Positions 19,682-24,007 of a stretch of 64,000 nt of DNA are shown piece by piece (positions within the stretch are counted from its first letter, which is position 1; each line of letters opens with the position of its first letter). The notes beneath the pieces are model-generated. The model did not search any database. It worked only from the letters and a program-made list of their open reading frames with translations, and was not told the origin of the DNA. This DNA comes from an uncultured Bacteroidales bacterium (lineage in GTDB: Bacteria; Bacteroidota; Bacteroidia; Bacteroidales; G3-4614): NCBI GenBank assembly GCA_949297125.1, contig CASFRS010000007.1, positions 1-64,000 of the forward strand, read 5' to 3'. A program made the translations under genes and the position numbers.

Positions 19682-20596
19682 TCAGTTGCACTCCTGCTCG
19701 CAACAGTTACACCCCGGAAGTTCACATTCCACGGTACAATGCTGGACACCGTTCTTTCTCATGCACTTCTTCAATCCGTGTTTTACCGTTTCCATATCGA
19801 CAGGGTCGTCAATCTCCACATGCAGCGTCGCAGCGTTTTCGGTAGTGCTGACAGCCCATATATGCAGGTGATGCCACCCTTTCACGCCCGGAACTTCGGA
19901 AAGTTCCTTCTCTATGCTGTCCATGCTGACGGAAGCAGGTACTGCATCCATCGTAAGGAAGAAACTCTCGCGCAACAGGCTCCACGTAGAGAAAAGTATT
20001 ACGGCAGCTATTACCAGACTTATTATAGCATCCACCATATAAAATCCCGTATAGAGCATTACCAGCCCCGATACTACGACCCCTATCGACACCAGCGTAT
20101 CCATTGCCATATGCAGGAAAGCCCCGCGGATATTTATGTCGTCCCCGCTCTCCTTCATCAGAAGCCATGCCGTAACGCCGTTTACGACAATCCCTGCGGC
20201 AGCTGTCCACGACACGGCAACACCGTTCACGGGCTCAGGATTCCGCAACTTGTAAACACTCTCTATTATTATCGCGCCCACGGCAACCAGCAATATCACG
20301 GCATTTACGAGCGACACGAGAACGGTACTCTTTTTATAGCCGTAGGTAAAATGGCGGTTACCGTGCAGCGAAGCCATCTTTATAGCCAGCAGCGACAGTA
20401 CGAGAGTAAAGACATCGCCGAGGTTATGCCCAGCATCCGACAGCAATCCCAGCGAATTGCAGGCAAAACCGACCGCCGCCTCTACAAACACGAACAACAG
20501 GTTCAACGCTATACAAGCCGAAAAGACCTTCATCGTCGAAGGCGAAGAAGCATGTTCGGCAGAAATGTGATGATGATGAGAATGATTATGAGCCAT
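19682..20596 (-). CDS. CDF-family Zn(II)/Cd(II)-type efflux transporter (ZitB/CzcD-like)
   Basis: Exports divalent metal, probably zinc, from the cytoplasm by proton antiport. About 304 residues from ATG 20596: a His-rich start (HNHSHHHH), six membrane helices, metal-site pairs HxxxD in TM2 (DAGHNLGD) and TM5 (HMAMDTLV), and a C-terminal cytosolic domain. The extreme C-terminus CNCCEQECN adds a cysteine cluster that is unusual for the family and could bind metal. It follows copA by 53 bp on the same strand, so the two are likely cotranscribed. Confidence 0.9.
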   Translation of the reverse strand: MAHNHSHHHHISAEHASSPSTMKVFSACIALNLLFVFVEAAVGFACNSLGLLSDAGHNLGDVFTLVLSLLAIKMASLHGNRHFTYGYKKSTVLVSLVNAVILLVAVGAIIIESVYKLRNPEPVNGVAVSWTAAAGIVVNGVTAWLLMKESGDDINIRGAFLHMAMDTLVSIGVVVSGLVMLYTGFYMVDAIISLVIAAVILFSTWSLLRESFFLTMDAVPASVSMDSIEKELSEVPGVKGWHHLHIWAVSTTENAATLHVEIDDPVDMETVKHGLKKCMRKNGVQHCTVECELPGCNCCEQECN

Positions 20597-20649
20597 AACA
20601 AATACGATAATAAGATAATAAATAAATCCACGCACTTTCCGTCGCACAG

Positions 20650-23121
20650 TTACAGTTCGGTCAGCCGATAATCGCCCGCCGACTCGTTTACGACACGCTG
20701 AATCTCGTCGAGAGGTATAATACCCTTATCAAAACGGAGCTTTGCAACAGCAGGCTGCAACGACACCGAAGCAACGACACCCGGAATAGTATTCAACGCT
20801 TTTTCGACATGCATGCGGCAATGGTCGCACATCATGCCCGATACCGAATAACTTTTTTCCATAACGCTAATATAATTGTTTTTAATAGAAGATTTACGTT
20901 TCCCCCCGTTTTTTATTCGCAAACTGTTTGCCACAACACAAACGCTGCTCATTGCCATAGCCGCGCCCGCCACCATAGGGTTCAGCATAAAGCCGCAGAA
21001 CGGGTAGAGAATCCCGGCGGCAACAGGGACACCGACGACATTATATATAAAAGCCCAGAAAAGGTTCTGTCTTATCGTCCGCACGGTAAGGCGCGACAAC
21101 GCGAAAGCCGTCGGCAGTTTGGTCAAGTCGGACGATATTATCATCACGCCGGCTGCCTCCGCAGCAGTATCGCTGCCGCTCCCCATGGCCACGCCGAGGT
21201 CGGCCTGCGCCAAAGCCGCGCTGTCGTTAATTCCGTCTCCCACCATTGCAACAATCCTCCCCCCGCTCTGCAGGCGGCGTATAAATTCCGACTTGTCGGC
21301 AGGCAACATCCCCGACTCGAACCGCTCGATGCCGCACACGGAAGCCACGGCCGAAGCCGCAGCCTCGCGGTCGCCGGTAAGCATGAACACCTCCATACCC
21401 GCACGTTTCAATTCAGCTACCGCCGCAGCAGCCTCATGCCTTGCAGTATCCGACACGAACGCCACCGCCAAAGCCGCAGTCTCGTCGGCAAACCAGACGA
21501 CGCTCTCGGCCAAAGCAACCCGTCCGGCGACAACGGCATCAAGAGCCGCTCCTATAAAAACGCCACGCTCTTCCAGCAGACGACGGTTCCCGACATAAAA
21601 AAGACGCCCTTCAACACGCCCTTCAACACCCAAACCCGTCAAAGAACGAAACCCTTCCACGACAAGAGCATCGCCGCAAGAGGCGTCCTTGTCGAGATAA
21701 GCCGCAACAGCAGAGGCCACGGGATGTTCCGAACGCTTTTCGAGAGCGAAGAGGGCATTTATCAAAGAGTTGTCGCCATTGCTCCACACCACAGCCGTAG
21801 CAACAGGACGCCCCTCGGTGAGCGTACCCGTCTTGTCGAACACGACACTATCCACCTTACATGCCGTTTCGATACTCTCCGCATCCTTTATCAATATTCC
21901 GTTCTCCGCACCCCTGCCCACACCGGCCATGACGGCAGTAGGAGTTGCCAAGCCCAGGGCGCAGGGACATGCAATGACAAGCACGGTAACCATAGCCGAC
22001 AGTCCGCGCGTAACCCCTTCCACTCCGCCGAACACCGCCCACGCCGCGAAAGTTACGACAGCGACGCCTATTATCGTGGGGACAAACACCGCCGCCACCT
22101 TGTCCACAAGCCTCTGAACCGGAGCTTTGCTCCCCTGCGCATCCTGAACGAGGCGGATGATATTTGCCAATACCGTATTCTCCCCCACCTTGTCGGCACG
22201 GTACGACAAAAAACCGTTCCCGTTTACCGTTCCAGCAAAGAGTTGCGACCCCGGCATCTTCTCCACGGGGAGAGGTTCGCCGCTAAGCATACTCTCATCG
22301 ACATACGATTCGCCGTCCACCACGCAGCCGTCGGAAGCAATCCTTTCGCCGGGTCGCGCCACGAGAATATCGCCCGCCTCAATAGAAGCAAGCCCTACCG
22401 TCTCCGTTCCGCCCGAAGGGAGCTGCCGCAAGACAGTATCGGGACGCAACCCTGCAAGCTTGCGTATGGTATCCATAGTATTACGCCGGGCTTTCGACTC
22501 CAGCAGCCGTCCCAACAAGACAAAAGCTATCACAACGCCCGAAGCCTCGAAATAGAGATGCGGTTCGACACCACGTTGCAACCAGAAAGAGGGAAACAAA
22601 AGATTGGAGAGACTATACAGGTAAGCGACTCCGGTACTCATAGCCACCAACGTATCCATATTAGCCGAACGGTGGCGCAACTGTTTCCACGCGCTGATAA
22701 AAAATCCCCGTCCGAGCCAGAAAAGAAGAGGCGTCGCAAACAACCACGAGACCCACCCCGCCCATTCCGCATCCATAAAAAACATGCCGACCGCAATAAG
22801 CGGGAGAGCCAGGACAATGGCAGCGGCAGTCCGCCGTTTCAACGAACCGACGCTCCGCAGGTTCTCCATACGTGCTCTCTCCGCACCTTCGGCCATGTCG
22901 GTAACGAGACCGTAACCTGCAGCCTCTACTGCCTTTCGGATAATATCGGGAGAAGCAACATCGGGGTCGAATACCACGCTTAACGTAGATGCGGCGAAAT
23001 TGACACTCGCATCCGTAACGCCGTCGAGCGACGACACGCACTTCCCGACACGCGCGGCACAAGCAGCGCAACTCATTCCCGTAACGGGGAAAACCCGTTT
23101 CACGCTTTTAACTTCGTTCAT
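20650..23121 (-). CDS. copA: Cu(I)-exporting P1B-type ATPase with an extra C-terminal HMA domain
   Basis: Pumps Cu(I) out of the cytoplasm. From ATG 23121 it has about 823 residues: N-terminal HMA (GMSCAAC, Cys18/Cys21), membrane helices with the CPC motif (IACPCALG), DKTGT with phosphorylated Asp429, SEHPVA, GDGIND, and the Cu(I)-type signatures YN in TM7 and MxxSS in TM8. Unusually a second HMA domain follows (about 754-823, GMMCDHC). The linker between them (about 736-753) is Lys/Ser/Asn-rich, AT-rich in DNA and looks like a former intergenic spacer, with a G6 tract at 20902-20907. I prefer ATG 23121 or 23130 over 23160, which overlaps the -7 element. Confidence 0.93.
20894..20914 (-). other. 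G6/A6 homopolymer junction inside copA
   Basis: On the coding strand the frame reads ATA AAA AAC GGG GGG AAA CGT. One extra G, or a -1 shift on A-AAA-AAC, would meet TAA at 20896-20894 after a few codons and end CopA before the second HMA domain. That domain would then have its own ATG at 20862, 31 nt further on. Confidence 0.8.
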
Positions 23122-23157
23122 AACAGGCATCCTATTAGAAACCATTTTAAAACAGAA

Positions 23158-23165
23158 CAAAATTA
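23158..23165 (-). promoter_or_regulatory. -7 element of copA promoter
   Basis: TAATTTTG on the minus strand. Initiation near 23151 would give a leader of 20-30 nt to ATG 23130 or 23121 and exclude the ATG at 23160. The 120 bp between copA and the HMA-AraC gene are AT-rich and are the likely regulatory target. Confidence 0.55.
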
Positions 23166-23285: not shown

Positions 23286-23852
23286 TCAAAAAGAATCGAG
23301 AGGCCGACGCTCCTTTACGGGAAGGTTGCGGAACTCGCCCGGTGTCATCCCCGTAACGCGCTTGAACTGCGACGACAGATATGCGGCACTCGAATATCCG
23401 AGGCGGTCGGCAATTTCGGCAAGCGACAGTTCACCGTAAGCAAGCAGTTCCTTCACATACTCCACCCTTTGCGCAATAAGGAACTTCTCGACGGTAATCC
23501 CGCACGTTTCCGAAAAGAGCTTGCTTATAAAACTGTAATCGCGGTTTATGCGGTGCGACAGAAATTCCGACAGGTTATCCCTATGCGCCGCAGGAACACC
23601 CCTTGCATACTCTATTACGGCACCCTTAACATGCGCCACCAACTGTGCGTTATACTCTTCGAGCAGGGAAAATCCGAGCCGTTCAAGCTCGCCCCTTAAC
23701 CGCTCCCTGCAATCGGGATTCAGAGGCTCGGACAAACGGACAACCCCCAACTCCACCGAAACGGGGACAATCCCCTGCTCCGCCAAAGCCTTCTCGACAG
23801 CGGCAACACACCTGCCGCACACCATGTCCTTTATGTAAAGCGTCTCTTCCAT
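23286..23852 (-). CDS. HMA-AraC metal-responsive transcriptional regulator
   Basis: About 188 residues from ATG 23852. An N-terminal heavy-metal-associated domain (about 4-65, IKDMVCGRCVAAVEKAL with Cys12/Cys15) is fused to a C-terminal AraC double helix-turn-helix (about 85-180, with LAEIADRLGYSSAAYLSSQF and RVTGMTPGEFR). The metal domain replaces the usual sugar-binding cupin. It lies directly upstream of copA on the same strand. I infer that it senses Cu(I) and activates copA and the CDF gene. Two -7-like elements, TACCTTTG (23883-23890) and TAATTTTG (23892-23899), precede it. Confidence 0.88.
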   Translation of the reverse strand: MEETLYIKDMVCGRCVAAVEKALAEQGIVPVSVELGVVRLSEPLNPDCRERLRGELERLGFSLLEEYNAQLVAHVKGAVIEYARGVPAAHRDNLSEFLSHRINRDYSFISKLFSETCGITVEKFLIAQRVEYVKELLAYGELSLAEIADRLGYSSAAYLSSQFKRVTGMTPGEFRNLPVKERRPLDSF

Positions 23853-24007
23853 AAAATTCCGCCGCACACGTTTCCGCTGCATCAAAGGTAGCAAAATTAC
23901 CCGCGCCTGCCTTAACCGAGAACAGGTATTTTTCGGCTAAACGCAAAACGGATACAGGCGGCTACAAAGACATGGATGTTAAAAAAACACAAACGACAGC
24001 CGAAGCT

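Follow-up and report, generated by a model that had tools for sequence, protein, structure and literature searches.

A copA gene fused to a C-terminal HMA domain in an uncultured Bacteroidales bacterium and its probable second product, a free CopZ-like chaperone

Background

In Escherichia coli, the free HMA known as CopA(Z) is the N-terminal one of CopA, and in Archaeoglobus fulgidus the second metal-binding domain of CopA is located at the C-terminus. Programmed -1 frameshifting in copA gives rise to the E. coli copper chaperone (PMC7558416, PMC9548414). The gene described here is similar in that one copA gene would give a pump and a free HMA copper chaperone; the difference is that the E. 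coli product is an N-terminal HMA made by a frameshift, whereas here a C-terminal HMA would be made by putative in-frame initiation.

Other known systems share single elements of this arrangement. In copA-copZ operons, such as staphylococcal copAZ (PMC10249872), the order is also pump then HMA, and in the clostridial examples that were checked copZ has the same start relative to CxxC, with a Shine-Dalgarno (SD) sequence before it. However, no stop codon separates pump and HMA in the present gene, so that a tethered form is encoded too. The CopA of A. fulgidus, for which two metal-binding domains are described (PMC11970713), likewise has an HMA-type domain at each end, but a separate, unusual CopZ exists in that organism (PMC7558416). 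In-frame internal starts have been reported within several genes, including those for Cas11b (PMC11899642), RpnS inside RpnL (PMC10327210), and the IF2 isoforms from infB (PMC11005335). In these cases, as proposed here, an internal start in the same frame additionally yields a segment of the larger protein as a separate product; none of them belongs to metal transport, whereas the product proposed here is a metallochaperone for its own transporter. A nested copZ, or a CopZ with an internal start, was not found in the open-access papers searched, and subscription journals may differ.

Results

The copA gene and its neighbours

The window is a stretch of 64,000 nucleotides (positions 1 to 64,000 of contig CASFRS010000007.1, assembly GCA_949297125.1) from an uncultured Bacteroidales bacterium. 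The features relevant to this study are given below.

19682 to 20647, minus strand: cation diffusion facilitator (PF01545), downstream of copA; profile match
20650 to 23160, minus strand: copA, predicted Cu(I)-exporting P1B-1 ATPase; single open frame of 836 codons plus stop; TIGR01511, PF00122, PF00702 and two PF00403 stretches
20650 to 20862, minus strand: C-terminal HMA or proposed nested copZ, 70 amino acids, GMMCDHC; PF00403 and predicted fold
20860 to 20862, minus strand: proposed internal start ATG (Met767), 11 codons before the first Cys of CxxC
20863 to 20910, minus strand: linker of 16 residues, GC 0.30, disordered in the model; proposed translation-initiation region
20902 to 20907, minus strand: G6 tract, shared with the sister species and missing in other fused relatives of the order
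20908 to 20914, minus strand: A AAA AAC heptamer of the -1 frameshift type, in the correct phase; the shifted frame leads to the same TAA as one added G
20909 to 20914, minus strand: A6 run at the junction of core and linker
22912 to 23094, minus strand: N-terminal HMA, GMSCAAC; profile match
23286 to 23894, minus strand: gene for an N-terminal HMA plus AraC-type HTH, upstream of copA; profile matches; candidate copper-responsive regulator of copA

The copA frame begins with TTG at 23160, with in-frame ATGs a few codons on, and ends with a stop codon at 20652-20650 (minus strand). An N-terminal HMA is followed by the P1B ATPase core, which ends in VVANSLRIK, and then by the 16-residue linker and Met767 with the C-terminal HMA. 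The translation scores 574.6 bits with TIGR01511 (copper-translocating P-type ATPase), above the curated cut-off of 397, and the CPC, DKTGT, and the YN and MxxSS of the last helices are all present and nearly invariant in an alignment of 33 sequences. By these profile and motif criteria, the gene product is classed as a CopA-type Cu(I)-exporting P1B-1 ATPase.

The C-terminal HMA reaches 35.5 bits with PF00403 (cut-off 24.8) and has the fold of about 70 amino acids and the MxCxxC motif (GMMCDHC) that are expected of CopZ. The curated CopZ models, however, remained below their cut-offs for this domain, the best being NF033794 with 46.8 bits against 95, and typing of the domain returned generic CopZ/HMA matches only, with no nearer solved relative. 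On profile evidence it is thus CopZ-like, not a CopZ equivalog. In the AlphaFold model, pLDDT is below 50 at protein residues 754-766 (model residues 743-755); the disorder ends just before Met767, where the strand-helix-strand-strand-helix-strand HMA fold opens. The GC content is 0.30 in the linker versus 0.58 over the last 1.5 kb of the core.

An HMA search of this genome yielded three domains in all, two in CopA and the third in the AraC-type protein encoded upstream, and no separate copZ. Homologues of the HMA-AraC regulator adjoin copA in about 30 other Bacteroidota loci, whether copA is fused or not; the protein is probably the copper sensor and regulator of the copA operon.

Genuine fusion and its distribution

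An earlier note on this DNA described an open CopA frame running through the linker into a full C-terminal HMA. This was confirmed, no stop being present between 23160 and 20650 on the minus strand. The A6 (20914-20909) and G6 (20907-20902) runs that it placed at the junction are both there, and one added G does create a TAA ending 31 nt before the ATG at 20862-20860. Its view of the linker as spacer-like was also a fair description, the linker having the character of a copZ translation-start region.

A copA of this type was found in 2 of 8 genomes of the genus, the window genome and G001; this was the only genus of the family covered. In G001, the stop-to-stop frame is likewise 845 codons long, and the junction is identical down to the G6. 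Between the two copies of copA there are 24 differences in 2511 bases, and the 12 kb around them are 96% identical; therefore, these are separate assemblies of sister species. As a separate observation, a 3-kb stretch of the window's own genome (L177:5001-8000, G000:C4) has no DNA match in the same-genus genomes G001, G004, and G005, and is perhaps a strain-specific element.

Outside the genus, CopA is joined to a C-terminal HMA through unrelated linkers in other genera of the order (L086, L087, L088, L089, and L094), and a Paraprevotella MAG (L005) also carries such a fusion. When the clostridial class was sampled, roughly one CopA match in two continued into an HMA without a break. The CopA-HMA fused frame is genuine, as the earlier note had considered: the sister species has the same frame and distant relatives are fused.

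In a tree of 161 CopA cores, the fused label requires 2 changes outside Bacteroidota and 7 within Bacteroidota, of which at least 3 are forced by well-supported branches. This suggests that the clostridial fusion is essentially one old event, and the Bacteroidota fusions appear to have arisen separately from it and more than once. A common fused ancestor of Bacteroidota and Clostridia was rejected because the tree separates them and several origins in Bacteroidota are needed. Among the genes scored, 112 fused ones have a single N-terminal HMA, in 5 none was detected, and not one has two, while two are present in 20 unfused genes; the second HMA of CopA seems to be placed at either the N or the C terminus. 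In addition, three Bacteroidota CopAs (L059, L108, and L119) carry a different C-terminal HMA-like domain with TNxNCxxCVA and no GMxC, and in 2 of the 3 position -11 is likewise occupied by an ATG with unstructured surroundings.

Probable start signal in clostridial fusions

The non-Bacteroidota set consisted of 137 fused CopAs, nearly all from Clostridia; the pool of all fused linkers numbered 148. An in-frame linker ATG lies 9-14 codons before the first Cys in 126 of the 137, exactly at -11 in 106 of them. Of these 126 ATGs, 118 are preceded by an SD match of 5 nt or more, versus 77 of the 1435 remaining in-frame ATGs in these genes, and the spacing is most often 8-9 nt; once relatives with core identity of 70% or more were removed, the SD was still present in 92 of 100. 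The motif falls in each of the three codon phases and encodes KE, KG, GG, EE, or EG. Synonymous recoding yields 55.2 +- 4.7 SD sites compared to the 118 observed, and the K-E pair is encoded as AAGGAG in 59 of 75 cases at the linker site versus 70 of 412 elsewhere. These comparisons argue that selection in clostridial fusions acts on the DNA at the SD site and not on the peptide, the initiation signal apparently being conserved beyond what the peptide would need. The linker region is also unstructured (mean -2.6 versus -12.8 kcal/mol).

Exceptions to this pattern are few. Among the 11 genes without an ATG at -9 to -14, 3 have GTG at -11 with an SD before it and 1 has an SD and ATG further upstream. 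In one clostridial fusion (L039), a perfect AAGGAGG and an ATG are found 17 codons before the Cys and not 11; the start site was shifted yet kept. Genes without a linker start codon are mostly without the SD too, and about 5% of the non-Bacteroidota fused genes have neither; for this reason the tethered form alone can suffice.

The same start position is seen in genuine copZ genes. Separate copZ genes of related Clostridia also start at -11; ATG is the start codon in 11 of 13, and an SD-like match is present in 13 of 13. As a control, second N-terminal HMAs were inspected for a Met at this position, and 0 of 20 had one. A strong stand-alone HMA frame (E <= 1e-10) is present anywhere in the genome in 4 of 22 fused clostridial genomes, and beside copA in 12 of 12 unfused ones. 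The start signal was kept while the linker peptides diverged, which is therefore read as selection for internal initiation; the fusion being old (2 changes in the tree), the start site would have outlived the linkers. Taken together, internal initiation in the clostridial fused genes is highly likely.

Linker ATG in Bacteroidota

In Bacteroidota, the SD is largely unused, and start regions are A-rich and unstructured, an adenine at -3 being one of the features that favour initiation (PMC6847099). The excess over synonymous recoding therefore concerns the clostridial fusions, no SD being expected here. A start model for the window's own genome was built from 2003 internal ATGs and only 72 unambiguous starts in about 0.45 Mb of the genome, namely the window and some 0.39 Mb of other stretches (AUC 0.92). 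With it, the linker ATG scores 5.09, above 99.5% of internal ATGs, and stands at the 61st percentile of true starts with cross-validation and at the 46th without. No other ATG in the window copA scores higher or is less structured. The same is true of the linker ATG in all 7 distinct Bacteroidota fused genes that have one, the window gene included; L059 and L119, with their non-canonical C-terminal HMA-like domain, are among these 7. An initiation signal together with an in-frame start codon, as a locus with an internal start should have, is thus predicted at this site.

The site is not universal in Bacteroidota fusions, since in L086 and L108 the stretch inspected holds no start codon, and L005 offers just TTG/GTG in a poor context. 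Furthermore, what marks a start in Bacteroidota is for the most part AT-rich, unstructured sequence, and a Lys/Asn-rich linker would have these properties in any case. The clostridial evidence applies to Bacteroidota by analogy because the fusions arose separately. Internal initiation in this genome appears rather likely.

Discussion

We consider it fairly probable that the window copA encodes both a CopA with a tethered HMA and a free CopZ-like chaperone, the latter through in-frame internal initiation. A single transcript would carry both products, and the linker DNA would double as a translation-initiation region. The majority of ribosomes would pass the linker and produce CopA with a C-terminal HMA on a flexible linker; the remaining ribosomes would initiate at the ATG at 20862-20860 and produce a free chaperone of about 70 residues, which may collect cytosolic Cu(I) and pass it to the pump. 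At the sequence level, the analysis shows the position of the start site, its signal, context and conservation, and the absence of another copZ; that ribosomes use the site is inferred, as are the proportions of the two products and how the tethered and the free form share the work.

Two other explanations concern the junction itself, for which the earlier note had offered a sequencing artefact and a slippage-controlled switch. A sequencing or assembly error in what would truly be two genes, copA and copZ, is scarcely credible: the junction homopolymer and the 31-nt spacer produced by adding a G would fit it, but the independently assembled sister species has the identical frame and G6 within the 12-kb region compared above, and relatives are fused without homopolymers. 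A switch is improbable in which -1 frameshifting at A AAA AAC (20914-20908), or a slip at G6, gives a CopA without HMA that stops at the TAA located 31 nt upstream of the ATG. The heptamer is correctly phased and precedes G6, the shifted frame does end at TAA, and frameshifting is established for E. coli copA (PMC7558416, PMC9548414). However, heptamer and G6 are confined to the window gene and its sister copy, the heptamer is found in no other Bacteroidota fused linker, and the E. coli event sits elsewhere in copA. The gene is not classed with programmed frameshifting of the E. coli CopA(Z) type for want of a conserved slippery sequence, A AAA AAC with TAA occurring among Bacteroidota fused linkers in the species pair only; a -1 frameshift is retained as a minor alternative. 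Slippage at G6 was rejected as well, the tract being unconserved among fused relatives, which have unrelated linkers; G6 or C6 is found in just 4 of 148. By the refuting condition of the earlier note itself, relatives fused through linkers without homopolymers, its homopolymer idea does not hold. The runs exist as it described but do not mark the linker, as copA has another G6, another A6, and four T6. Similarly, the arithmetic of an added G giving the shape of a copA-copZ pair holds, but out-of-frame stops, expected by chance, are present in 142 of 148 fused linkers, and the argument is therefore uninformative. Its idea of fused and free forms survives in part: two forms are likely, but in-frame initiation at the linker ATG is a more likely mechanism than a frameshift.

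The most probable explanation after internal initiation is a plain fusion, in which the C-terminal HMA is purely a tethered metal-binding or regulatory domain and the linker Met and AT-rich DNA are unused remnants of copZ. The frame is open and conserved, the disordered linker and well-folded HMA of the AlphaFold model agree with it, and the start codon is missing in L086, L108, L066, L203, L212, L215, L220, and L227. We regard it as rather unlikely, since SD and ATG persist in about 94% of genes with the old clostridial fusion despite diverged linker peptides, synonymous codon choice favours the SD, and the genes that lost the start codon are mostly without the SD, as expected if both were kept together. 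SD-like pausing has been discussed in the literature, and the SD-like stretch, lying just past the last transmembrane helix, might be a ribosome pause site that aids insertion of this helix into the membrane or folding of the HMA, with no start. This is very improbable, because an in-frame start codon strictly accompanies the SD at the proper spacing, three genes have GTG as an accepted replacement for ATG, and real copZ genes start at this position.

Conclusions

Beyond the window, the comparisons lean, somewhat more than evenly, towards a widespread and unannotated two-product gene: a copA with an in-frame nested copZ, which would have evolved at least twice (once, early on, in Clostridia and separately in Bacteroidota) and would be the initiation-based, C-terminal counterpart of E. 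coli CopA(Z). Every such genome would make both forms, in a ratio set by the linker start site. If this is true, many gut Clostridia and some Bacteroidota have a copper chaperone that annotation overlooks, hidden as it is inside a gene called as one ATPase. The arrangement would also be a second independent solution, after the E. coli frameshift, in which one copper gene gives pump plus chaperone. Finally, the role of tethered metal-binding domains in P1B pumps has been left open by the literature (PMC10973460, PMC11970713), and the same domain in tethered and free form would offer a natural pair for probing that role.
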